Part shown: in pieces, positions 2,608 to 53,148 of the stretch
Layout of the letters: each line of letters opens with the position of its first letter
How positions within the stretch are numbered: the first letter of the stretch is position 1
Assembly (NCBI GenBank): GCA_039908345.1
Contig: JAMOBD010000027.1
Location: forward strand, 1 to 53,148
DNA: 53,148 nt
Direction of reading: 5' to 3'
Source: Magnetospirillum sp. WYHS-4
GTDB lineage: Bacteria; Pseudomonadota; Alphaproteobacteria; Rhodospirillales; GLO-3
Notes under the pieces: model-generated
What the model was told of the DNA's origin: nothing
What the model saw: the letters and a program-made list of their open reading frames with translations, nothing else
Database searches by the model: none
Position numbers and translations under genes: made by a program

Positions 2608-3079
2608 GTCCGGCCTCCTCGATGCGGGGTGCCCAGGCGGGGGGGCCGGACAGCACGGCCCGGCGGGCATCGCCCCCGGCATGGGCGAGCCCAACCGTCA
2701 GGGCGGAAGGGGGCAACAGGTGCCCCAGGCGCTCCGGCCATTCGATCAGGGATATGGCTTCGGCGAAGGCTTCCTCGATGTCCAGTTCGTAGGCGTCGTC
2801 CGGCCGCTCCAACCGGTAGAGGTCGAAATGATAAAGGGAACCGCGGCCGGTCTCGTAGGTCTGCACCAGGGTGAAGGTGGGGCTGGGGACTTCCTCGTCG
2901 TGGCCCTCGCAGGCGGCGATGAAGGCCCGGGCCAGCACCGTCTTGCCGCAACCCAGGTCGCCCGCCAGGGCGAAGACGTCGCCCGGCCGGCAGACGCCGG
3001 CCAGCCGACGCCCCAGGCGGCGGGTGGCTTCCTCGTCGGGCAGGTCGATGGCGGCAAGCGGGGCGGTCATGTCGTCCAA
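2597..3079 (-). CDS. tsaE: TsaE, tRNA N6-threonylcarbamoyladenosine ATPase
   Basis: A 160-residue P-loop protein. Walker A is GDLGCGKT at residues 40-47, followed by the family landmarks PSPTFTLVQTYE, HFDLYRL and IEWPERL. TsaE is the ATPase that works with TsaB and TsaD to transfer threonylcarbamoyl to A37 of ANN-decoding tRNAs in the cytoplasm. The length is usual for the family. It heads the run tsaE-amgK-murU-addB, where every junction overlaps or is 1 bp apart. Only about 30 bp separates it from the stop of the rhodanese gene upstream, so that gene's promoter may also serve this run. Confidence 0.95.
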   Translation of the reverse strand: MDDMTAPLAAIDLPDEEATRRLGRRLAGVCRPGDVFALAGDLGCGKTVLARAFIAACEGHDEEVPSPTFTLVQTYETGRGSLYHFDLYRLERPDDAYELDIEEAFAEAISLIEWPERLGHLLPPSALTVGLAHAGGDARRAVLSGPPAWAPRIEEAGLVR

Positions 3080-3109
3080 TCTAACCGCAGCCGCGGCGCG
3101 TTTCCACCC

Positions 3110-3559
3110 TCAGTACTGTACCCAGGGCAGGCCTTCCACCTTCCAGCCGCCCAGAAGGCCGCGGTGCTTGGCCTCGTCGGGCTTGCCCTCGAATCCGTCG
3201 GCCACGTTATAGCAGCAGCGGTAACCCTGCGCCGTCGCCGCCACCGCCGCGTGGCGGGACCGTTGGCCGATGCGGCAGATGAACAAGATGGGCGTATCCT
3301 TGTCCGGCACCGCCTTTTCCAGTTGGACGGCAAAGTCCGGATTGGCCGCCATGCCCGGGAAAAGCTGCCACTGAACGAACTTCAGTTCCTTGCCCAGGGA
3401 CGACAGGTCGGGATGCCCGACGAAATTCCATTCGGCTTCCGTCCGCACATCGACCATGACCAAGCGCGGGTCTGCCGCCAGCATCTGCCATGCGGCGAAA
3501 GGAGCGACATTCCCGGCAAAGCCTTCCTGGATCTGGATGAAGGGGCGAGCGTCGAACAT
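3110..3559 (-). CDS. Rhodanese-domain protein (sulfurtransferase-like)
   Basis: A single rhodanese domain of 149 residues. It has VMVDVRTEAEW near residues 34-44 and the active-site loop CRIGQRSR with the candidate catalytic Cys95. The frame is open to an ATG at 3706, but that extension crosses an AT-rich promoter-like stretch. A good -10/-35 pair at 3594-3621 would start transcription near 3587, so the ATG at 3559 (MFDARPFIQIQ) is the sensible start. The gene diverges from groESL. The substrate is unknown; thiosulfate or persulfide transfer is the family expectation. Its stop lies 30 bp before tsaE on the same strand. Confidence 0.85.
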   Translation of the reverse strand: MFDARPFIQIQEGFAGNVAPFAAWQMLAADPRLVMVDVRTEAEWNFVGHPDLSSLGKELKFVQWQLFPGMAANPDFAVQLEKAVPDKDTPILFICRIGQRSRHAAVAATAQGYRCCYNVADGFEGKPDEAKHRGLLGGWKVEGLPWVQY

Positions 3560-3593
3560 GGGCCTATCTTTCGCTTTGTCGAGCATAAAATAC

Positions 3594-3621
3594 AATATAT
3601 TGCATGTTATTGGATTGTAAA
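3594..3621 (-). promoter_or_regulatory. Probable sigma70-type promoter of the rhodanese gene
   Basis: On the minus strand TTTACA (3621-3616), a 16-base spacer and TATATT (3599-3594) each match the consensus hexamers at five of six positions. The surrounding AT-rich patch (about 3585-3650) contrasts with the GC-rich genome. A perfect 10-base palindrome, CAATATATTG, overlaps the -10 and could be a regulator site. Predicted transcription start is near 3587. Confidence 0.5.
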
Positions 3622-3665
3622 TAACAAAAACGGTGTATATTTCTGTGCGCCTCAACCTCACCCCC

Positions 3666-3694
3666 TTGACAGCGACGCCTACGCGGCCTAGATG
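3666..3694 (+). promoter_or_regulatory. groES: Probable groESL promoter
   Basis: TTGACA at 3666-3671, a 17-base spacer and TAGATG at 3689-3694 lie just before the CIRCE element. The pair CTTGAC ... CCTAGAT also resembles alphaproteobacterial RpoH promoters, so heat-shock sigma control in addition to HrcA is possible. The -10 is weak by the sigma70 standard. Confidence 0.5.
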
Positions 3695-3695
3695 G

Positions 3696-3722
3696 TTGGC
3701 ACTCATGCGGGGTGAGTGCTAG
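3696..3722 (+). promoter_or_regulatory. CIRCE operator (HrcA binding site)
   Basis: TTGGCACTC, a 9-base spacer and GAGTGCTAG form the CIRCE inverted repeat (consensus TTAGCACTC-N9-GAGTGCTAA), with one change in each arm. The two changes are independent, so the arms are still nearly self-complementary. It lies between the groES promoter and start codon, the usual place for HrcA repression of groESL. Confidence 0.93.
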
Positions 3723-4092: not shown

Positions 4093-5784
<1,692 letters not shown>

Positions 5785-16340: not shown

Positions 16341-17654
16341 CTACAGTTCCCGCATGGCCCCCTGGAAACCCGCCAGAAAGGACGACAGCAGGTACTCGAA
16401 GATGCTGCGGTCGCCGATCAGCACGTCGGCTGTGACCTGCACGCCCGGATAGAGCCGATAGGTGAGGGGCCCCGCCTCGAAGGCGTCGCGGTCGGTCTCG
16501 ATGCGGATCTCGTAGAAGGCTCCCTTGTCGGTGACCACGGCATCGGGGCTGACCAGGGTCAGGCGCCCGTCCAGGTGGCCGAAGCGGGCGGCGTCCGAAT
16601 AGGCGAGACGAATGCGCGCCGCCTGGCCCTCGCGCAGGTAGCCGATGTAGTAGGTGGGCATGCGGGCCTTGATGACCAGCCGGTCCTCGCCGGGAACGAT
16701 GTCGGCCACCGTCTTTCCGGCCTGCACCACGCCGCCCTTGGTCACCACGTAGAGCGTCTTGACCGTGCCGGCCACCGGCGAGCGCAGCACGGTGCGGCCC
16801 AGGTTGTCGGTGAACTTGCCCAGGCGCTGGCTCAATTCCTCCAGGTCGCGGCGGGCCTTGGACAGGTCGGTGGTCGCCTCCTCGACGAAGCGCTGGCGCA
16901 GGGAGGCCAGTTCGACCCGGGCTTCCTTCAGTGCCGAATCGGCGCGCTTCAGGCCGGCCGCATCCTCCTCGATACGTCCCTTCAGCACCGAAGATTCCTG
17001 CAACAGGCTCAGGTGGTTGAGGCGGCTGGACAGTTCCTGCTTGAGCATATGCTCGCTGATATCGATGCGCTCGCCCAGGAGCTTCAGGGTATTCTGCGAA
17101 TTCCTGAGCCGCGCCGCGATTTCCTGGACGGCGTGCTCGTGCTGCGTGATGGCCTCTTCCTGCTTGCGGACCGCATTGATCTTCCGGTCTCGGCGGGCCT
17201 GGAACAGTTCACGCGATTGCTTCACCAGGGCTGGGTGCTTCTCCGCCAGGTCGGCCGGATAGACCGGCTCCCCCTTGTCCGCGAGTTCCGCCTCCAGCCG
17301 GCCACGGTCGGCCGTCAAGGCGGCGAGGCGCAGGGTGAGTTCGTTCACGTCCGCTTCGCTGGCCGTGGTCTGCAGGGCCAGCAGGGGCTGATCGACCGCC
17401 ACCTTTTCGCCTTCCCGCACGAAGATCTCCGAGACGATCCCACCCTCCAGGTGCTGGATGCTCTTCACCTGGGTGGAGGGTATCACCTCCCCCGTCGCCA
17501 CCGCGACGATATCGAGCCGCCCGATGAAGCCGCTCAGCAGGACCGCCGCGAACAGCGCACCGCACAAGGCGACGAACAGGTGCGTCGGTCCCATCTCGGG
17601 GTCCCGGAACGCCGTCCGCAGCCTTTCGACATGCCGCAGGAAATCCTCACGCAT
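16341..17654 (-). CDS. Type I secretion membrane fusion protein (HlyD family)
   Basis: A 437-residue adaptor. It has a cytoplasmic N-terminus (1-27), one TM helix (HLFVALCGALFAAVLLSGFI), a first lipoyl half with GEVIPSTQVKSIQHLEGGIV, long coiled-coil helices (about 120-300), TVLRSPVAGTVKTLYVVTKG and a C-terminal beta domain. It bridges the ABC exporter and the TolC-like channel for one-step export. The ATG overlaps the ABC gene stop by 8 bp (17647-17654). A closely similar adaptor is encoded at 50037-51323. No RTX-type substrate gene is in the window. Confidence 0.92.
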   Translation of the reverse strand: MREDFLRHVERLRTAFRDPEMGPTHLFVALCGALFAAVLLSGFIGRLDIVAVATGEVIPSTQVKSIQHLEGGIVSEIFVREGEKVAVDQPLLALQTTASEADVNELTLRLAALTADRGRLEAELADKGEPVYPADLAEKHPALVKQSRELFQARRDRKINAVRKQEEAITQHEHAVQEIAARLRNSQNTLKLLGERIDISEHMLKQELSSRLNHLSLLQESSVLKGRIEEDAAGLKRADSALKEARVELASLRQRFVEEATTDLSKARRDLEELSQRLGKFTDNLGRTVLRSPVAGTVKTLYVVTKGGVVQAGKTVADIVPGEDRLVIKARMPTYYIGYLREGQAARIRLAYSDAARFGHLDGRLTLVSPDAVVTDKGAFYEIRIETDRDAFEAGPLTYRLYPGVQVTADVLIGDRSIFEYLLSSFLAGFQGAMREL

Positions 17655-19323
17655 CGCCTGGGACCTTTTCCCGTTGGGCGACGGCCGTCAACCTGGGTAC
17701 GGGCTTGACCCCCAGGTCCAGGACGAAGGTGGCACCCTTCATCGCGTTGGGATCGTGGGAGAACAGGATCAGGGTGGCCCCCCCGGCGGCCAGGGCGTTG
17801 ACCGCCTTGTGCAGGGCCGCCGTACCTTCCGCGTCCATGCCTTCGGTCGGTTCGTCCAGGATGGCGAGGCGGGACGGGTTGACCAGGGCCCGCGCCAGGG
17901 CCAGGCGCCGCCGCACCCCCACCGCCAAGGTACGTCCGCCGTCGACGATCGGGGTGTCGAGGCCGCGGGCCTGGCCGTCCACGAAGGCTTTGAGCCCGGC
18001 GGCGGCGATGACCTCGGTCATGCGCCGCTGATCCAGGCTCGGATCGATCGCCTTGAAGTTGTCGGCAATGCTGCCGGGAAGGAAGGAAGGCTCCTGCGGC
18101 AGGTAGGCGATCCGCCGCCGCCACCAGCCGGTGTCGATCTGGCGGAGGTCGATCCCGTCCACCAGAATCTGGCCGCGTTGCGGTTCCAGCAGTCCGACCA
18201 GCAGGCGGGCCAAGGTGGTCTTCCCCGCCCCGTTGGTTCCCACCACCAGCAGCACCTCGCCCGGAGCCAGCTTCAGGCTAAGGGATTCGAACAGGGGCAT
18301 CGGCGCGCCGGGAAAGGAAAAGGCGAGGTCGATCAGTTCCAGGTGTCCGGCATGGCGGTCCGGCAGGGTTCCTTCCCGGCGTTCGCGCGGCAGCTTTCCG
18401 AAGTCCTCCGCCAGACGGATCGCCTGATTGGCCTTGGAGATCGATTCCAGCATGGCGGCAAAGCGCGAAATCGGCTGCAGGGCCCGCCCCGCCAGGATAT
18501 TGGCGCCGATCATGGCCCCCGCCGTCAGGCTGCCCGTGACCACCAGGATACCGCCCAAGCAGATGATGGCGACTCCCTGCAGCCCGCCGATCATCCCGGA
18601 TAGGGTCATCACCAGGCCCTGCAGACCGCCCACGGTTTCCCGCCGCCCGGAAAGAACCTCGCGGTCGCGGCCCCAGCGTTGCTTGACGAACTCCGCCCCC
18701 AGGAAGGCGCGCACCGTGTCCGCGGCGCCCACGGCGGCGGCGATGGACTGGTTGACTTCGGCCTGCGCGTCGGCGACCTGGCGGGTCGGGTCGCGAAGAC
18801 GCATCTGGTTGTGCAACGTGGCGGCGATCTGGAGCGCCGATGCCAGAAAGGCGACCATTCCCAGGGCGGGATGCAGCAGGAACAAAGCCCCCAGGAACAA
18901 TAACGCGAAGGGAAGATCGGTCAGGGCCGCCAAGTTGGTCGCCGAATAAGTCTGCTCGACGGCATCCATGCCGCGCATGACCTCGCCGCGGTGGGACTGG
19001 GGCAATTTCTCCAGGCCGGCCAATCGGCTTTCCAGGAGGGTTTCCATGGTCCGCTCGGCGAGCACCCGGTTGGGTTCCCGGACGATCAGACGGGCGAGGC
19101 GCGTCCGCGCCTCGCGAAAGCCGGCTTCGAAAGCCACCGCGATGATGGCGACCACGGTCAGGGTCATCAAGGTGGCATCGACCCCGAAACCGATATAGCG
19201 GTTCATCACCTGCATCACATAGATGGTGCTGGTGAACCCCAGAAGATTGATGATGAAGCTCGCGGCCAGGATCTCGGCGACGATGCCCCGCCGTGCCGCC
19301 AGCCTTTGCAGAAGCTCGTTCAT
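17647..19323 (-). CDS. Type I secretion ABC transporter (permease-ATPase)
   Basis: A 558-residue half-transporter of the PrtD/LapB-like type. The TM domain covers residues about 15-300. The ATPase domain has Walker A VGTNGAGKTTLA, Q-loop IAYLPQEP, Walker B LAILDEPTEGMD and H-loop LFSHD. The ABC signature is unusual: TLAVGVRRRLALARAL replaces LSGGQ-RQR. It exports an unknown protein with the HlyD partner downstream and the TolC-like gene 11 bp upstream. There is no C39 peptidase domain. The paralogue at 51320-52822 shares the same odd signature but lacks the first 99 residues. Confidence 0.92.
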   Translation of the reverse strand: MNELLQRLAARRGIVAEILAASFIINLLGFTSTIYVMQVMNRYIGFGVDATLMTLTVVAIIAVAFEAGFREARTRLARLIVREPNRVLAERTMETLLESRLAGLEKLPQSHRGEVMRGMDAVEQTYSATNLAALTDLPFALLFLGALFLLHPALGMVAFLASALQIAATLHNQMRLRDPTRQVADAQAEVNQSIAAAVGAADTVRAFLGAEFVKQRWGRDREVLSGRRETVGGLQGLVMTLSGMIGGLQGVAIICLGGILVVTGSLTAGAMIGANILAGRALQPISRFAAMLESISKANQAIRLAEDFGKLPRERREGTLPDRHAGHLELIDLAFSFPGAPMPLFESLSLKLAPGEVLLVVGTNGAGKTTLARLLVGLLEPQRGQILVDGIDLRQIDTGWWRRRIAYLPQEPSFLPGSIADNFKAIDPSLDQRRMTEVIAAAGLKAFVDGQARGLDTPIVDGGRTLAVGVRRRLALARALVNPSRLAILDEPTEGMDAEGTAALHKAVNALAAGGATLILFSHDPNAMKGATFVLDLGVKPVPRLTAVAQREKVPGDA

Positions 19324-19334
19324 GGGCCGGCCCT

Positions 19335-20651
19335 CTATTTAGCGGCGGCGAGGCTCGTCATCTCCGCCCGGGTCAAGGTTCCCATTCGGTAAAGTAGGGT
19401 GACGGCCGCGATGGTGACGTCGGCTTCGGCCGACGAGGCGTCGCTCAGGGCATTGATCGCCGTCGTCTCGCCGTTCAGCACGTCCAGCAGCGAACGACTG
19501 CCCAGTTCGCGTTCCTTGCGCGCCAACTCGAGAAAGGCATTGGCCAGGGTCGCCTGATCCTGAAGATAGCGCCAGTTGGCCAGCGCCGTCTGCAACGACT
19601 GCCAGGCATTCCTCACTTGCTCCTCGGCTTGCTCAAGGGCCTGGCGTACCCGGCTTTCCGAGGCTGAAACCCCGCTTTCCGCCGCCCGGATGCTGTTGAG
19701 CGCGGTGAGGCCCAGGTTGAACGGCAGCTTGAGCTGAACCTTGACGGTGTCGGTTTCCTTATCCCCCATGGTTCCGTCGACATGGGTCTGCTTCTTGTGT
19801 TCGCCCACCGCCTCGATGACCGGCAGAAAGCCCTTTGCCGTGGCCGCCCGCACCTGCTCGCGCGAAATGTCGGCGGTTACCTTGGCCAGGCGGAGCGACG
19901 GGCTGCGGTCCAGCGTCAGGGCGAGGGCCTCGTCCACCGTCTTCGGCAGGACATTCATCTCGAGCTTCGGCTTGACCAGCTTGGCGATGTCCTTGGGCAA
20001 TTCCCCGAAAACGCTGCGAAACCGGTTGAGCGCCTGTTCGTACTGGCCCTCGGCGCGCACTTGGCGGGCCCGGGCGCCGGCCAGTTGGGACTTGGCCTGC
20101 AGGACGTCCGTCGTGTAGCCGCCGCCGCTCTGCACACGGGCTTCTTCCAGGCCGGTCTGGCTGCGTACGTTGGCCTCGGCCTGCCGGGCAAACTGCAGGG
20201 TTTCGTGCGCCCGGATCAAGTTGGCGTAGGCCGTGACCGCCTCCAGGAACAAGGCCTGTTCCCCGTCGATCACCGCCAAGTCGGCCCGCACTTCCTGCAG
20301 CGCCGCCGTGTCGATGGCCGCACCGGTCTTGCCGAAGTCGTAAAGGAGCTGGGTCACCGTGAGGCTGTGCTCGCGGGCCACCGTGTTGGTCTGGGTGCCC
20401 GCCGGCTGGTTCTGCTTCTGCCGCCCGCCCCAGGCATTGACCGAGGCCTCGGGGTACCAGTCGCTCCAGGCTTCCTTGGCCTTTTCCTGGGCGCCGACGC
20501 GGTCGTGGCGCAACGCCTCCAGCTTCGGGTCCCTGGCCTGAGCCGCGCCCAGAAATTCCTGGAGAGAGTCGGCGAGAACCGGCGTCGCCACCAGCCAAAC
20601 GGCTGCGACCAGCGACGCCCCATACCAGCCCCGTCCAATTTTTTCGGACAC
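19335..20651 (-). CDS. TolC-family outer membrane channel (type I secretion)
   Basis: About 438 residues. It has a signal peptide (WYGASLVAAVWLVATPVLA) and two TolC-like repeats of coiled-coil helices, with family landmarks such as LTVTQLLYDFGKTGAAID and LGLTALNSIRAAESGVSASE. It forms the outer membrane duct for the exporter encoded immediately downstream. The frame extends to an ATG at 20762, but the GTG at 20651 sits directly before the signal peptide with GGGGGA upstream, so it is preferred. It is the first gene of the tolC-ABC-HlyD operon. Confidence 0.9.
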   Translation of the reverse strand: MSEKIGRGWYGASLVAAVWLVATPVLADSLQEFLGAAQARDPKLEALRHDRVGAQEKAKEAWSDWYPEASVNAWGGRQKQNQPAGTQTNTVAREHSLTVTQLLYDFGKTGAAIDTAALQEVRADLAVIDGEQALFLEAVTAYANLIRAHETLQFARQAEANVRSQTGLEEARVQSGGGYTTDVLQAKSQLAGARARQVRAEGQYEQALNRFRSVFGELPKDIAKLVKPKLEMNVLPKTVDEALALTLDRSPSLRLAKVTADISREQVRAATAKGFLPVIEAVGEHKKQTHVDGTMGDKETDTVKVQLKLPFNLGLTALNSIRAAESGVSASESRVRQALEQAEEQVRNAWQSLQTALANWRYLQDQATLANAFLELARKERELGSRSLLDVLNGETTAINALSDASSAEADVTIAAVTLLYRMGTLTRAEMTSLAAAK

Positions 20652-20694
20652 GATTCCCCCAGTCCCCTCGCCCAACCGAGAGCCACCGAGGCCG

Positions 20695-20723
20695 ACTTTG
20701 CAGTGGTTCCTCCAGGCTGTCAA
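20695..20723 (-). promoter_or_regulatory. Possible promoter of the type I secretion operon
   Basis: On the minus strand TTGACA (20723-20718) is perfect, with a 17-base spacer and a weak CAAAGT -10 (20700-20695). It lies 44 bp before the GTG chosen for the TolC-like gene, in the 172-bp gap after draG. Confidence 0.35.
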
Positions 20724-20823
20724 CCGCGGCCCGGAAGGCGAGGCGGAGCTTAACCTTATCACCGCAGCGGATCGTCCTGTCGAAGGGATAACCTACCGGC
20801 GATTCGCCTTGGACCCCGCCCTT

Positions 20824-45040: not shown

Positions 45041-46540
45041 ATGACCGATCCCCAAGCCGACTTTTCCGCCTTCGTCTGGATCTGGAACGAACGCCAGTCG
45101 CTCAAGACCCCAGACCTTCACATCCGCATGGCGCGCTGGCTCGACGAAAGCTGGCGGGCGCGCCATCATCACCTGCTGCTCATGGCCTTCCGCAACAGCG
45201 GCAAGTCCACCCTGGTCGGCCTGTTCTGTGCCTGGCTGCTCGGGCGCGATCCCAACCTCCGCATCCTCGTGATGGCCGCCGATCTGGCTTTGGCCCGCAA
45301 GATGGTGCGCAACGTCAAGCGGATCATCGAACGCCACCCGCTGACCAAGGGCTTGAAGCCCGAACGAGCCGACCAATGGGCCTCCGACCAGTTCACCGTC
45401 AAGCGCCCGGCCGAACTGCGCGATCCTTCCATGCTCGCCAAAGGCATCGGGGCGAACGTCACCGGTTCGCGCGCCGACGTCATCATCTGCGACGACGTCG
45501 AGGTGCCCAATACCTGCGACAGCGTCAACAAGCGCGCCGACCTGCGCGAACGCCTGCACGAATTGGACTACGTCCTGGTGCCGGGCGGTCTGCAGCTCTA
45601 TGTCGGTACACCCCACACCTTCTACACCATCTACGCCGAGGAGGTGCGGCGGGAGACCGGCGAGGAAGCGCCCTTCCTGGCCGGGTTCCGTCGTCTGGAA
45701 CTGGCTGTCGTCGACGAGAAGGGCGAAAGCCGGTGGCCGGAACGCTTCCCTGCCGCGAAGATCGAGGCCATCCGGCGTCGTACCGGTCCCAACAAGTTCG
45801 ACAGCCAGATGATGCTCAGGCCCACCAGCTTGGCGGAAGGCCGGCTCGATCCCGATAAGCTGCGGGAATACACCGACGATCTTGTCTATGCCGAAGGCAA
45901 CGGCGAAGCCACCCTCTCTCTGGGCGGGCACCGACTAGTCTCGGCCTCCTGCTGGTGGGACCCCGCGTACGGGTCTCCCGGCAAGGGAGATGCCAGCGTC
46001 GTCGCCGCCGTCTTCACCGATGCCGACGGCGACTACTGGCTGCACCGCATACGCTACCTGCGCCATGATCCGGCCAAGCTTGCCGAGGTCGACGAGGCGA
46101 CTCAGCTTTGCCGCCAGGTTGCCGCCTTCGCCGACGAATTCTTCCTGCCGGCCGTACGTCTGGAAAGCAACGGTCTCGGTAAGTTCCTTCCGGGCCTGTT
46201 GCGCCGCGAGTTGCGTGCCGCCGGCCTGGCCTGCGCGGTCGTCGAAATGACGAGCACGCGGAACAAGGAACTGCGAATCATCGACGCCTTCGATGCGGTC
46301 CTGGCAGCCGGACGGCTGCATGTTCACCGCGAGGTCTGGTCGACGCCCTTCATCACCGAGATGCGGGAATGGACCGCCCAAGGGTCAGGTCCCGACGATG
46401 GCCTGGACGCGGTAGCCGGCTGCCTGCTTACCGAACCGGTCCGCCTGGCGCGCCTGGCCGACCCCGACGACATCCGCTCGCGGGGTCGATGGCGGCCAGG
46501 CACCGCGGGATGGAAGGCGGGCCTCGATTTCGAGATCTGA
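45041..46540 (+). CDS. Phage terminase large subunit
   Basis: 499 residues. The ATPase half has Walker A AFRNSGKST (49-57) and Walker B DVIICDDVE. The nuclease half is RNase H-like with WDPAYGSPGKGDAS (first acidic ligand), ESNGLGKF and a C-terminal DDGLDAVAGCL (acidic ligand). It cuts and pumps concatemeric DNA into the prohead. It is full length with all key residues visible, although no portal or capsid gene remains in the window. It is followed by a hairpin terminator. Confidence 0.9.
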   Translation: MTDPQADFSAFVWIWNERQSLKTPDLHIRMARWLDESWRARHHHLLLMAFRNSGKSTLVGLFCAWLLGRDPNLRILVMAADLALARKMVRNVKRIIERHPLTKGLKPERADQWASDQFTVKRPAELRDPSMLAKGIGANVTGSRADVIICDDVEVPNTCDSVNKRADLRERLHELDYVLVPGGLQLYVGTPHTFYTIYAEEVRRETGEEAPFLAGFRRLELAVVDEKGESRWPERFPAAKIEAIRRRTGPNKFDSQMMLRPTSLAEGRLDPDKLREYTDDLVYAEGNGEATLSLGGHRLVSASCWWDPAYGSPGKGDASVVAAVFTDADGDYWLHRIRYLRHDPAKLAEVDEATQLCRQVAAFADEFFLPAVRLESNGLGKFLPGLLRRELRAAGLACAVVEMTSTRNKELRIIDAFDAVLAAGRLHVHREVWSTPFITEMREWTAQGSGPDDGLDAVAGCLLTEPVRLARLADPDDIRSRGRWRPGTAGWKAGLDFEI

Positions 46541-46599
46541 ATACGAGGCAACAGATTTCCTCATCGTCGGGGAAATCGGCACCATCGGTGCCCTCACGA

Positions 46600-46622
46600 A
46601 GCCCCGCTCCGGCGGGGCTTTT
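46600..46622 (+). terminator. Hairpin terminator after terminase
   Basis: AGCCCCGC (46600-46607) pairs with GCGGGGCT (46612-46619) around TCCG, then TTTCC. Its core matches the hairpin at 39529. Confidence 0.75.
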
Positions 46623-46651
46623 CCTTTCCAACCAACCACGGAGTCACGTCC

Positions 46652-46966
46652 ATGAAGGAAACCTGGACCGTCGACCTGATCTGGTGGATCACGGTCGTCG
46701 AGCTTCCTGCGCTCGCGGGACTGTTCTGGATGATCTGGCGCAACCGCCAGGATCTGGATCAGTCTTTCGACGCGTGTCGGCAACGTTGCGATGCCGATGT
46801 CGCCGCTCAGAAGGAACGGCTGTCGGCCTATAAGCTGGAGGTAGCGCAGCACTATGCTTCCATCTCCTATCTCAAGGAAGTGGAGAAGCGCCTCACCGAA
46901 CATCTGGTGCGGATCGAGGACAAGCTCGACCGTAGCCCCCGCGACCACAAGGGAGCTTGGTCATGA
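46652..46966 (+). CDS. Small phage membrane protein (lysis-module candidate)
   Basis: 104 residues with one N-terminal hydrophobic helix (LIWWITVVELPALAGLFWMIW, written as residues about 9-29) followed by a long charged coiled coil (QRCDADVAAQKERLSAYKLE). The topology fits an i-spanin or pinholin-like protein. It overlaps the cell-wall hydrolase start (ATGA, 46963-46966), supporting a lysis role. Holin versus spanin cannot be decided. Confidence 0.65.
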   Translation: MKETWTVDLIWWITVVELPALAGLFWMIWRNRQDLDQSFDACRQRCDADVAAQKERLSAYKLEVAQHYASISYLKEVEKRLTEHLVRIEDKLDRSPRDHKGAWS

Positions 46967-47397
46967 CCGGGCCCCAGCCGCAAAGCGAGGCCATCGACGT
47001 TCTCGCCCGCACTCTCTACGGCGAGGCCCGCGGCGAGCCGGCCGAAGGCAGGGAAGCCATCGCTTGCCTGGTGATGAACCGGGTTCGCAAGGCGCGCGGA
47101 CGCAAGGGTGGCTACTGGTGGGGCAACACGGTGGCCGAAGTGTGCCGCAAGCCCTGGCAATTCTCGTGCTGGAACGCGGACGATCCCAACCGCGAGGCGC
47201 TGCTGAAGGCCACCGCGCGAAACAAGGTCTTCGCCGTCTGCCTGCGCATCGCCCGCGACGCCATCGAAGGTCGGCTCTCCGATCCCACGGGCGGTGCCAC
47301 CCATTACCACGCCCGGGGTATTACTCCTCCCTGGGCCAGGCGGCGCTCGCCCAAGATCGTCATCGGCGACCACCTGTTCTACGTCGACGTGGAATAA
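46963..47397 (+). CDS. SleB-type cell-wall hydrolase (phage endolysin)
   Basis: 144 residues of the Hydrolase_2/SleB family: DVLARTLYGEARGEPAEGRE (catalytic Glu in GEARGE), ACLVMNRVRKARG, VCRKPWQFSCWN and GATHYHARG. It is expected to cleave peptidoglycan glycan strands at lysis. The ATG at 46963 overlaps the membrane-protein stop; a TTG six bases upstream is in frame but unnecessary. No signal peptide, so export would need the membrane partner. Confidence 0.85.
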   Translation: MTGPQPQSEAIDVLARTLYGEARGEPAEGREAIACLVMNRVRKARGRKGGYWWGNTVAEVCRKPWQFSCWNADDPNREALLKATARNKVFAVCLRIARDAIEGRLSDPTGGATHYHARGITPPWARRRSPKIVIGDHLFYVDVE

Positions 47398-49300: not shown

Positions 49301-50037
49301 TTCATGCCCCGTTCCTTGGCGATGCGGTCGTAGGCGGCGTTGATGGCGGCCATGCGACGGTTGGCCTGTTCGGCGAACTCGGGCGGCAGGCCTTGGGCGA
49401 CCAGGCGGTCGGGGTGGTTTTCGCGGCTGAGCTTCCGCCAGGCCGCCTTGATCGCGGCATCGGCGGCACCCCGTTCGACGCCAAGGATTTCGTAAGGGTC
49501 CGCTTCCTGGGGCGGCATGTGGGCTTGGCGGATGCGTTCGAAGGCCTGCGGCCCGAAGCCGAAGATCGCCGCCACCCGGCGCAGGAAGTCCAGTTCGGCC
49601 TCGTGGATCGCGCCGTCCGCCTTGGCGATGGCGAACAGGCCGTCCAGAAGTTCCACCAGCACCGCCGGCTGACCCGCGAACAGGCTGGCGATCTGGGCGG
49701 CGTAGGGCTCGAAGCCGGCGGCGTCGGCCCGCGCCTCGTCGAACAGGCGGCCGACATTGCCGATCTCGTCGGGCGGAATGTGGAACAGGCCGCGGAAGGC
49801 GGCGATCTCGTCGCGGCTGACCACCCCGTCGGCCTTGGCCATCTTGGCGGCCAGCACGATCACCGCCATGGTGAAGGCGAGTTGGCGTTCGGCATCGTAG
49901 CCCAGCGCGGGCGGAGCCTCTTCCTCCCGCCGCTTGTCGAAGAAGGCATGCCCGGCCACCGCGCCGGCCAGGGCCCCCAGGGGCCCGCCCATGGCGAAGC
50001 CCGCCACGCCGCCGATCACTTTGCCCCAGATACTCAT
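49297..50037 (-). CDS. TerB-domain and J-domain protein (DjlA-like)
   Basis: 246 residues. A Gly-rich N-terminus (VIGGVAGFAMGGPLGALAGA) may contact the membrane. A TerB-like helical domain follows (about 45-165; AKMAKADGVVSRDEIAAF and AIAKADGAIHEAELDFLRRV), then a C-terminal J domain (DPYEILGVERGA, HPD in SRENHPDRLV), which stimulates DnaK. This is the DjlA arrangement. The ATG at 50037 overlaps the HlyD stop by one base, and its stop overlaps the DMT transporter start. Confidence 0.88.
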   Translation of the reverse strand: MSIWGKVIGGVAGFAMGGPLGALAGAVAGHAFFDKRREEEAPPALGYDAERQLAFTMAVIVLAAKMAKADGVVSRDEIAAFRGLFHIPPDEIGNVGRLFDEARADAAGFEPYAAQIASLFAGQPAVLVELLDGLFAIAKADGAIHEAELDFLRRVAAIFGFGPQAFERIRQAHMPPQEADPYEILGVERGAADAAIKAAWRKLSRENHPDRLVAQGLPPEFAEQANRRMAAINAAYDRIAKERGMK

Positions 50038-51323
50038 CAGCGCTCCCTGAGTGCCATGTGGTAGGTGCCGAGGAACGGCTCCAGCAGGTATTCCATCACC
50101 GTGCGCTGGCCGATCCGGATGTTGCATTGGACCTGGACGCCGGGCACCAGGCTGTAGCGCAACTGCTTGCGTTCGAAGTAGTCGCGGCCGGTTTCGATCC
50201 GCACCCGGTAATAGGCGCCGCCCTTTTCCTGCTGGAAGGCGTCGGGGCTGACCTGGACCACCTTGCCTTCGATGTCGCCCAGCCGCACCGCGTCGGCGGA
50301 AGCGAGGCGCACCACCGCAGTCTGGCCGGGATGGACGTAGCCCACGTCCTGCACCGGCAGCTTGGCCTCGATGACCAAGCGGTCGCCTTCCGGCACCAGA
50401 TCGACAACCGAGCCGCCGGCCTTCACCACCCCGCCCAAGGTGGCGACGTAAAGGGTCTTGACCAGCCCCGCCACCGGGGCGCGCAGCACCGTGCGGGTCA
50501 GGCTGTCTTCGAACTTGCGGAAGCGGGCGGAAAGTTCTTCCAGGTCGCGGCGCTTCTTTTCCAGATCGCCGTGAACTTCCTCGTGGAAGCCGGTGCGGAT
50601 GTTTTCCATCTGCTGGCGGGCCTCGCGGATCGAGGCCTGAAGGCGCGGCAGGGCGGCTTCGTCCTCGGCCACCGAACTGCGCAGGCCCGACTGCTCCTTC
50701 AAGAGGTTGAGATGCACCATGCGATTGGTCAGGTCGTCCTTGAGCAGTTCCTCGCTGATCTTCACCTGCTCGTTCAGGTGCTTCAGCTTGTCGCGGGTAT
50801 TGCCCAGCCGGGCGGAGATTTCCCGCACCTGCTGCTCGCGCTGGGCGACGGTTTCCTGGGATTGGGCGATCTGGCCCTCGATGCGGGCGCGGCGGGCATC
50901 GAAAAGGCTCCTGGCCTCGCGCACGGCGCCCGGATGATCGGCGGCGAAGTCGGCGGGAAAGGCGATCTGCGTGGCCCCCGCGGCTTCCGCTTCCAGGCGG
51001 ACGATGTCGGCCTTCAGCGAGGCCAGGCGGGCGGTCAACTCGCCCACGTCGGCGCCGGTCGATGTGGGTTCCAGGCTGACCAGGGGCTGGCCGGCTTCGA
51101 CCCGGTCGCCTTCGGCGACATGGATCTCGCGCACGATGCCGCCTTCCAGGTGCTGGACGCTTTTCAACTGGGTGGAGGGGATGACCTCGCCCATGGCGGT
51201 GCTCACCACCTCCAGGGTGCCGATGCCGGCCCAGGCGAGAAACCCGCCCACCAGGGCCACGCAAAGCCAAAAGAAGGCCCGCGTCGCGGCGCCGACGGCG
51301 TCTTCCGGCCCTTCCCCGTTCAT
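50037..51323 (-). CDS. Type I secretion membrane fusion protein (HlyD family), second copy
   Basis: 428 residues, clearly paralogous to the adaptor at 16341-17654. It has one TM (FFWLCVALVGGFLAWAGIG), the shared GEVIPSTQLKSVQHLEGGIV, long coiled coils (about 110-290), TVLRAPVAGLVKTLYVATLG and a C-terminal beta domain. The ATG at 51323 overlaps the ABC gene stop (ATGA). No outer membrane channel gene is beside this pair, so it may share the TolC-like protein at 19335-20651. Confidence 0.9.
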   Translation of the reverse strand: MNGEGPEDAVGAATRAFFWLCVALVGGFLAWAGIGTLEVVSTAMGEVIPSTQLKSVQHLEGGIVREIHVAEGDRVEAGQPLVSLEPTSTGADVGELTARLASLKADIVRLEAEAAGATQIAFPADFAADHPGAVREARSLFDARRARIEGQIAQSQETVAQREQQVREISARLGNTRDKLKHLNEQVKISEELLKDDLTNRMVHLNLLKEQSGLRSSVAEDEAALPRLQASIREARQQMENIRTGFHEEVHGDLEKKRRDLEELSARFRKFEDSLTRTVLRAPVAGLVKTLYVATLGGVVKAGGSVVDLVPEGDRLVIEAKLPVQDVGYVHPGQTAVVRLASADAVRLGDIEGKVVQVSPDAFQQEKGGAYYRVRIETGRDYFERKQLRYSLVPGVQVQCNIRIGQRTVMEYLLEPFLGTYHMALRER

Positions 51324-52822
51324 GGCGTGTCCCCCGCCTGGACGCGCGGCACCGGCTTGGCGTTCAGATCGACCACCCAGCGGGCGCCCCGGATCGTCGA
51401 CGGATCGTGGGTCAGCACCACGATGGTGCGCCCGCGCCGGGCCAGGTCCATCAGCACCGCGTTGACCCTTGCGACGCCTTCCTTGTCCAGACCCTCGCCC
51501 GGTTCGTCGATCACCGCCAGCATGCCGTCGTGGGCGAGGGCCCGGGCGAGGGCGAGGCGGCGGCGGATACCCAGCGCCAGGTTGTCGCCGTGGCCCGTGA
51601 TTTCGCTCGCCAAGCCTGCGGCGCTGCGGGACACGAAGTCGCGAAGGCCCGCCTGGTCGATCAGGGCCGACAGGGCCTCGTCGTCCAGGTCCGGATTGAC
51701 CGCCCGGATGTTTTCCGCCAGCGTTCCGTTGAGGAAGCGGGGCTCCTGCGGCAGGTAGATCACTTGGCGGCGCCACCATTCGGGCAGGACTTGGGCCAGG
51801 TCGACGCCGTCGATGAAGATCTGGCCGCGCGTCGGTTCCACCAGGCCCAGCAGCAGGCGGGCCAGGGTCGTCTTGCCGGTGCCGTTGCCTCCCGACGCCA
51901 CCAGCAGGCTGCCCGGCTCCAGGCGCAGGGTGAGGGATTCGAACAAAGGCCCCTTGGCGTTGGGATAGGCGAAGGCCAGGTCGCGGAATTCCAGGGCGCC
52001 CGCGTAATGGGCAAGCTTGGACCCCTGCAGGCGTTCCATGGGCAGGCGGGCGAATTCGCCGATCATGGCCCCGGCGTGGCCCGCCTTGGCGAAGGCCTCG
52101 GCCAGCTTGGCGAAGGAGACGATGGGCCCCAGGGCCTTGCCGGCCAGGATGTTGCAGCCGATCAGGGCGCCGATGTTCAACTCGCCCTTGACCACCAACA
52201 CGGCGCCCAGGGCCATCACGGCCACCGCCATCAGGGCCTGGCCGGTCTGGGTGGCGGATTGCAGGAGGCCCTGGCGCAGGCCGATGACGGTCGCCAGGCG
52301 GCGCTGGCGCGCGTCTTCCGTTTCCCAGGCCTGGCGGACGAACCCGCCCAGATTGAAGGCGCGTATGGTGTCCGCGGCGACGATGGCCGATGCGATCAGG
52401 CCGCCGCGCCTGCCGCCCGCCACCGCCAGGTCCTTCATGCGGGAAGCCAGGCTGGCGGAAGACGCCAGGCTGCCCAGCAGCACCAGCGTGATGACGGTGG
52501 AGGCCACGACGGCGATGGGCGGGCTCAGCAGGAACAGCATGCCGACGAAAACGAGGGCGAAAGGCAGGTCCAGCAGGGTGGCGACGTTGCCTGCGGTGTA
52601 GGCGCCGCGGATCTTGTCGACGCCGTCCACCACCTCGCGCCGCATGCCGGGCGAGATCATTTCCAGGGTGCCGGTCCGGGCGCCGGCGAGCACGCCGAAG
52701 GCGGCTGCCAGCGACGCGAGCTGGGGGATATCGAGCGACTTGGCGACGTCGCCCTTGCGGCGCGCGTCCTCGAGCTTCTTGGGTGTCGGCTCTTCTGTCT
52801 TGGAGGCGGCGTCTTCGGCCAT
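51320..52822 (-). CDS. Type I secretion ABC transporter with FlhB-like N-terminus (chimera)
   Basis: 500 residues. From residue 49 on it aligns without gaps to the other ABC exporter (its Arg100 onward). It has the remaining TM helices, Walker A GGNGTGKTTLA, PQEPRFLNG, signature LALGIRRRLALARAL (not LSGGQ), Walker B LAVIDEPGEGLD and H-loop LTHD. Residues 1-48 instead read like the start of the flagellar export protein FlhB (SKTEEPTPKKLEDARRKGDV then AKS). The first two TM helices of the exporter are therefore missing. It is either a real fusion, a misassembly or a truncated gene that picked up a new start. Confidence 0.8.
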   Translation of the reverse strand: MAEDAASKTEEPTPKKLEDARRKGDVAKSLDIPQLASLAAAFGVLAGARTGTLEMISPGMRREVVDGVDKIRGAYTAGNVATLLDLPFALVFVGMLFLLSPPIAVVASTVITLVLLGSLASSASLASRMKDLAVAGGRRGGLIASAIVAADTIRAFNLGGFVRQAWETEDARQRRLATVIGLRQGLLQSATQTGQALMAVAVMALGAVLVVKGELNIGALIGCNILAGKALGPIVSFAKLAEAFAKAGHAGAMIGEFARLPMERLQGSKLAHYAGALEFRDLAFAYPNAKGPLFESLTLRLEPGSLLVASGGNGTGKTTLARLLLGLVEPTRGQIFIDGVDLAQVLPEWWRRQVIYLPQEPRFLNGTLAENIRAVNPDLDDEALSALIDQAGLRDFVSRSAAGLASEITGHGDNLALGIRRRLALARALAHDGMLAVIDEPGEGLDKEGVARVNAVLMDLARRGRTIVVLTHDPSTIRGARWVVDLNAKPVPRVQAGDTP

Positions 52823-53148
52823 CTAGCTGAAGACCTCCAGCACCTCGCGGAAGCGCGAGAACACCTCGCCCAGCGCCGAGGCCATGCCCCAGCGCGCGCC
52901 CGGCATCCGCGCACGCAACTCGCGACCCGCGGTCAGGTGGTCGGCGTGCGCGTGCGTGTCGAGAATCCAGTGTACGTTGAGATCGAGGTCACGGACCAGG
53001 CGGCTCACGCGATCGAGCGAGTGCGCGCTCGTCAAGTGCGTCGCGGGATCGTAGTCGAGCACGGGGTCGATCACGACCGCGTCGCGTGTGAGTTCATCCC
53101 ACGCGACGTACGTCAGAGACGAAGTCGCCGGATCGAAGAAGGCGTGCA
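52823..53148 (-). CDS. Metallo-beta-lactamase-fold hydrolase, partial
   Basis: The frame is open at the window edge, so the first residues are outside. The visible 107 residues run from HAFFDPATSSLTYVAWDEL to a TAG directly abutting the next ATG. They include VVIDPVLDYDP and the metal motif THAHADHL, typical of ETHE1/persulfide-dioxygenase-like MBL proteins. The domain is cut off early: a full protein needs well over 200 residues. Codon style (frequent CGCG, ACGTACGTC) differs from the rest of the window, suggesting foreign DNA or a contig-end join. Confidence 0.65.
   Translation of the reverse strand, partial: HAFFDPATSSLTYVAWDELTRDAVVIDPVLDYDPATHLTSAHSLDRVSRLVRDLDLNVHWILDTHAHADHLTAGRELRARMPGARWGMASALGEVFSRFREVLEVFS

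Follow-up and report, generated by a model that had tools for sequence, protein, structure and literature searches.

An FlhB-like start on a type I exporter gene at a contig end is very probably an assembly artefact

The stretch of DNA analysed here (the window) is the whole of contig C27 (G000:C27), 53148 bases long, from a draft genome of 3.65 Mb in 172 contigs that appears to be metagenome-assembled. Near its right end the minus strand carries an open frame (51320-52822) that runs from ATG to stop and encodes 500 amino acids; as a first-pass annotation had reported, it opens like FlhB and then continues as an ABC exporter of type I secretion. The anomaly is confined to the last ~460 bases of C27, where the contig end is a mosaic of three pieces: exporter sequence from about 52705 inward, a fragment spanning the end of fliR and the start of flhB, and a truncated fragment of a metallo-hydrolase gene. 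All lie on the minus strand. The genuine exporter part (permease/ATPase; 51320-52705) makes up approximately residues 40-500 of the frame and is without the first ~90 residues of such a protein. It is preceded by 46 codons of a Caulobacteraceae-like flhB 5' end (52685-52822), and these in turn by the 3' end of fliR (52823-52855), whose TAG stop abuts the flhB ATG. From there to the contig end lies an internal fragment of a Blh-type MBL-fold sulfur dioxygenase gene (52850-53148), which is cut on one side by the end of the contig and on the other by the join to fliR. The foreign stretch therefore does not begin at the gene start. Nor is there a sharp join at residue 48/49, as had been proposed, because the frame is FlhB-like to about residue 46 and exporter-like from about residue 40. 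Codons 40-46 (AAFGVLA) fit flhB and exporter alike and define a misjoin zone of ~21 bases at 52685-52705, whose limits come from a codon-by-codon comparison with three flhB and eight exporter relatives and from the limits of the DNA matches. Base composition was tried as a marker of the window's foreign pieces and rejected, since none stands out (GC is 0.68 in the fliR-flhB piece and 0.675 in the hydrolase piece, against 0.657 for the window).

The exporter portion of the frame has a Pfam ABC_tran domain at residues 295-441 (E 1e-21) and an ABC_membrane domain at residues 66-226 (E 4e-12). The latter corresponds to model positions 106-266 of 274, so that the first 105 positions are missing and the N-terminal membrane region is incomplete. 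An HlyD-type adaptor gene (50037-51320, minus strand; HlyD_3; TIGR01843 at 408.6 bits with a cut-off of 208.65) abuts the exporter. A search with the exporter gave a match at E <= 1e-90 in 24 of 60 genomes, its own counted in both figures, and we aligned one locus from each of 19 of the 23 other matching genomes, together with a complete paralogue from the window (17647-19323, minus strand). The 19 relatives are 46-57% identical to the window protein (P0001), and their alignments begin at its residues 26-42, except that of L034, which has N in the region and starts at residue 89. Little N-terminal information is provided by three of these loci: L027 (shortened, with an odd start), L031 (whose frame starts late, close to the edge of a contig) and L034 (N). 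The alignment with the paralogue, previously described as gap-free, is nearly so: residues 48-496 match 99-547 with 46% identity, although with 450 columns for 449 residues. The reported loss of two membrane helices agrees with a simple hydropathy scan, in which the window frame has nothing that corresponds to the paralogue's first two hydrophobic segments, at 12-32 and 43-70. The curated NCBIfam cut-offs for LssB (TIGR03375) and PrtD (TIGR01842) are reached by neither protein; for LssB the window exporter scores 292.9 bits and the complete paralogue 357.8 bits, both below the cut-off of 693.1. The paralogue belongs to a complete type I secretion set at 16341-20762 (minus strand), with an OEP-family outer membrane protein, the ABC exporter and an HlyD-type adaptor, and this set is paralogous to the broken exporter at the contig end. 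Elsewhere in the window are phage-like genes at 45041-47397 on the plus strand (one with a terminase RNaseH-like domain, at 45041-46540, and one for a cell wall hydrolase, at 46957-47397), possibly a prophage remnant or part of a gene transfer agent.

When the first 48 residues of the frame are scanned alone, Bac_export_2 (FlhB family, PF01312) matches residues 7-46 with an E value of 5e-11, so the FlhB match is not due to chance. The frame thus resembles FlhB and SctU (PF01312) over its first ~46 residues and differs from them thereafter: NPTH, a motif of FlhB, is absent from 51320-52822, and the remaining FlhB helices and cytoplasmic domain have no counterpart there, an ABC exporter standing in their place. 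The flhB start is 80% identical in amino acid sequence to FlhB of two Caulobacter MAGs (L041/L042), and over 52685-52855 (~171 bp, the fliR end plus the flhB start) the DNA is 84 and 83% identical to theirs. Within a sample of 299 genomes of the family to which these MAGs belong, 33, both MAGs included, match the flhB fragment at E <= 1e-20. One such locus (L166) has the FlhB start MAEDAASKTEEPTPKKLED, the same as the window, and in two others (L167, L171) FliR tails such as SRYRELLEVFS (then stop) lie directly 5' of flhB. In six of the eight best loci (L164 and L170 were left out when lengths were taken) flhB is intact, with 362-367 codons and NPTH present. The first-pass annotation had regarded the same stretch in an intact flhB elsewhere, together with a complete copy of the exporter, as the sign of an artefact; there is indeed an intact flhB on contig C28, but it is a different one, 55% identical over 31 amino acids to the window fragment. 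Because the C28 gene differs in this way, another organism is the most likely source of the fragment. A second flagellar system of the same genome was considered as its source and set aside, as the FlhB N-terminus query matches only the window and the C28 flhB. Near-identical donor DNA for the fliR-flhB piece was not found, the best match being 84%.

The outermost fragment matches NCBIfam NF040641 (sulfur transferase/dioxygenase Blh), its residues 1-97 corresponding to model positions 145-240 of 423 with 81 bits, where the cut-off for the whole protein is 625; Lactamase_B of Pfam matches it as well. That it is the genome's own gene was considered and rejected, a second homologue being absent from the genome at E <= 10. 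In a phylum sample of 398 genomes, including its own, the window alone matches the fragment at E <= 1e-25. All 360 matching plasmid records are under 60% identity (up to 48.9% among the 12 matches listed), and relatives were found in six of the seven genomes reached through FlhB loci, the best at 46%. A donor was thus not found in the genome itself, the phylum sample, the plasmid records or the seven FlhB-locus genomes.

We also looked for the same fusion from both of its sides. Of 114 confirmed FlhB-type loci, the best 80 were inspected, a sample in which rarer fusions could be missed, and in none of the 80 does FlhB continue into an ABC domain (exporter part at E <= 1). In 77 of these 80 loci the frame, counted from the match, is complete and has 344-379 codons, the other three being cut by the end of the locus; NPTH is present in 74, and two of the remaining six are likewise cut by the locus end. 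On the exporter side, no aligned sequence with a readable N-terminus, among the 19 relatives and the paralogue, has an FlhB-like start (L027, L031 and L034 say little on this point).

The exporter's N-terminal half (residues 1-90) is present in the same genome, at positions 3707-3976 of contig C111 (L139; 4440 bases). When the N-terminus of a relative is used as query, its best match in the genome is C111:3707-4009 (61% identity, E 5e-33), ahead of the paralogue. Eight N-terminus matches were obtained in the genome at E <= 1, and six of them lie directly 5' of their own exporter match; the exceptions are C111, which has the N-terminal part only, and the window, which is matched by query residues 81-118 only. 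Moreover, 18 exporters (the paralogue and 17 relatives) have a match to both pieces, and in all 18 of them the positions that correspond to residue 90 of the C111 piece and residue 40 of the window frame are next to each other (L027 and L031 have no match to the C111 piece, and L034 was extrapolated over its N stretch). C111 carries, in this order, an RTX-repeat gene with an open end (HemolysinCabind), a gene with a PIN domain and the first part of an exporter, which opens with MKELIRRL. Similarity to exporters stops after about residue 90, and the tail of the contig, from 3977 to its end at 4440, is an antisense fragment of a pseudouridine-synthase gene (PF00849, E 5e-12; TIGR00093) with only 36 and 40% identity to the genome's two other matches. 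This tail does stand out in composition, with a GC content of 0.57 against 0.67 before it. C111 is thus also chimeric, its end being the second in this genome to look like a chimera. The two contigs have no word of 19 or more bases in common, and the 17- and 15-base matches listed between them (the first 12 for each size) are not at the join, so their joining rests on the tiling along relatives. The PIN-domain gene that separates the RTX gene from the exporter is VapC-like (C111 3294-3707, plus strand), and inspection by eye of the 2960-3710 region shows an antitoxin-like gene before it. Upstream neighbours vary among relatives: at L135 the exporter is preceded by a large gene that was considered as an RTX gene and rejected, Pfam giving a FecR domain only and no RTX hit, and at L136 by a divergent, putatively gyrase-like gene. 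Because the L135 gene has only a FecR domain, gene order was not used as support beyond the exporter-HlyD pair.

Since the missing front half of the exporter lies on another contig of the genome, we judge the FlhB-exporter frame to be a misassembly, and we put the probability that it is an artefact at the contig end and not a real gene at about 0.96. An ordinary type I exporter gene would have been broken by the assembly near codon 90. C27 would then have been extended wrongly through the ~171-bp Caulobacteraceae-like fliR/flhB fragment and on into the metallo-hydrolase fragment, and C111, on the other side of the break, into the antisense pseudouridine-synthase fragment; the C27 and C111 halves would be one gene. 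The joins were probably made where short words were shared, in the course of a metagenome assembly from short reads. The ~21-base zone that fits both parents suggests such a word as the cause of the misjoin; since near-identical donor DNA was not found, a shared word at each join is something we infer. Interspecies chimeric contigs have been documented in short-read metagenome assembly, at least in the simulated data that PMC3100316 describes. The present case is alike in that pieces of different organisms stand in one contig, and differs in that gene anatomy and the matching contig, instead of known reads, are the basis on which their origin is deduced. Observed directly are the mosaic, the other exporter half on C111 with the odd tail of that contig, and the absence of the fusion from the relatives examined. 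Counting against an artefact are a frame that is open across both joins (by our estimate about 1 in 9 by chance if the joins are independent), the unremarkable GC of the fliR-flhB and hydrolase pieces within the window, the lack of direct overlap between C27 and C111, a best donor DNA of only 84%, and the varied neighbours that relatives have upstream of the exporter (FecR at L135 and gyrase-like at L136, against RTX plus PIN on C111). Among other contig ends, 20 left ends (C28-C47) were viewed by GC and open frames and allow no clear general statement on tails. Two pairs of ends have a translated stretch in common, L141/L142 (the left ends of C29 and C30) and L151/L154 (C39 and C42), which suggests repeats at contig breaks; in L141 the GC falls from ~0.75 to ~0.45 within the first 600 bases.

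The first-pass annotation had also entertained a genuine domain-swapped exporter, in which recombination put the FlhB N-terminus, a flagellar export signal region, in place of the first two membrane helices. In its favour are a start codon and 500 codons in one unbroken frame, an FlhB match well above chance and a GC content that does not change at the join. The donor piece, however, also contains the end of fliR with its stop and is itself joined to a truncated metallo-hydrolase; all of this is crowded into the ~460 bases next to a contig end; the missing half of the exporter is on C111; and the fusion is in none of the best 80 of 114 FlhB loci and in no aligned exporter relative with a readable N-terminus. 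We therefore consider a swap highly improbable, and equally so a real fusion of the FlhB signal region to the exporter that arose once, by transfer of fliR-flhB from a Caulobacteraceae-like donor. The notion of an FlhB start spliced onto an exporter thus finds no support, the fusion being in no relative examined. The alternative reading of that annotation, a chimera, is strongly supported by the exporter half on C111 and by the identity of the FlhB stretch as a Caulobacteraceae-like fliR-flhB junction fragment; the exporter it had thought might be complete on another contig is not complete there, but the absent half is.

A real rearrangement in the cell, through illegitimate recombination with acquired Caulobacteraceae DNA, would leave a dead, truncated exporter with its other half on C111, and would be consistent with the presence in the genome of both gene halves, each beside foreign-looking DNA. 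It would need at least three fragments (fliR-flhB, hydrolase and pseudouridine synthase) inserted at one codon, each of them meeting a contig end within ~460 bases, whereas breakage during assembly is one step; we give it as little credence as the domain swap. Two wrong extensions at one assembly break are the simplest account of two contigs that break at the same codon. Chimeric DNA formed before assembly, during amplification or library construction, and then faithfully assembled would look the same, as it too would consist of short pieces from several organisms that meet where they are briefly similar. In a consensus, however, the true path should normally prevail over a rare molecule, and we regard this origin as the least probable of all.

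A chimera at a contig end can thus pass as a domain swap when it is in frame and matched in GC, with a Pfam match for each half, and the terminal ~460 bases of C27, like those of C111, should not be annotated in their present form. The two contigs are probably neighbours in the genome. The real gene is then most likely a type I exporter of the ordinary kind, with the gene of its HlyD partner after it: it is like the LssB (TIGR03375) and PrtD (TIGR01842) exporters in its membrane and ATPase domains, in the HlyD adaptor next to it and in the RTX-repeat gene near the C111 half, and the window copy differs from them in being without the first ~90 residues. With this adaptor the exporter presumably pumps the product of the RTX-repeat gene that precedes it on C111, a putative role that we assign from knowledge of the family.
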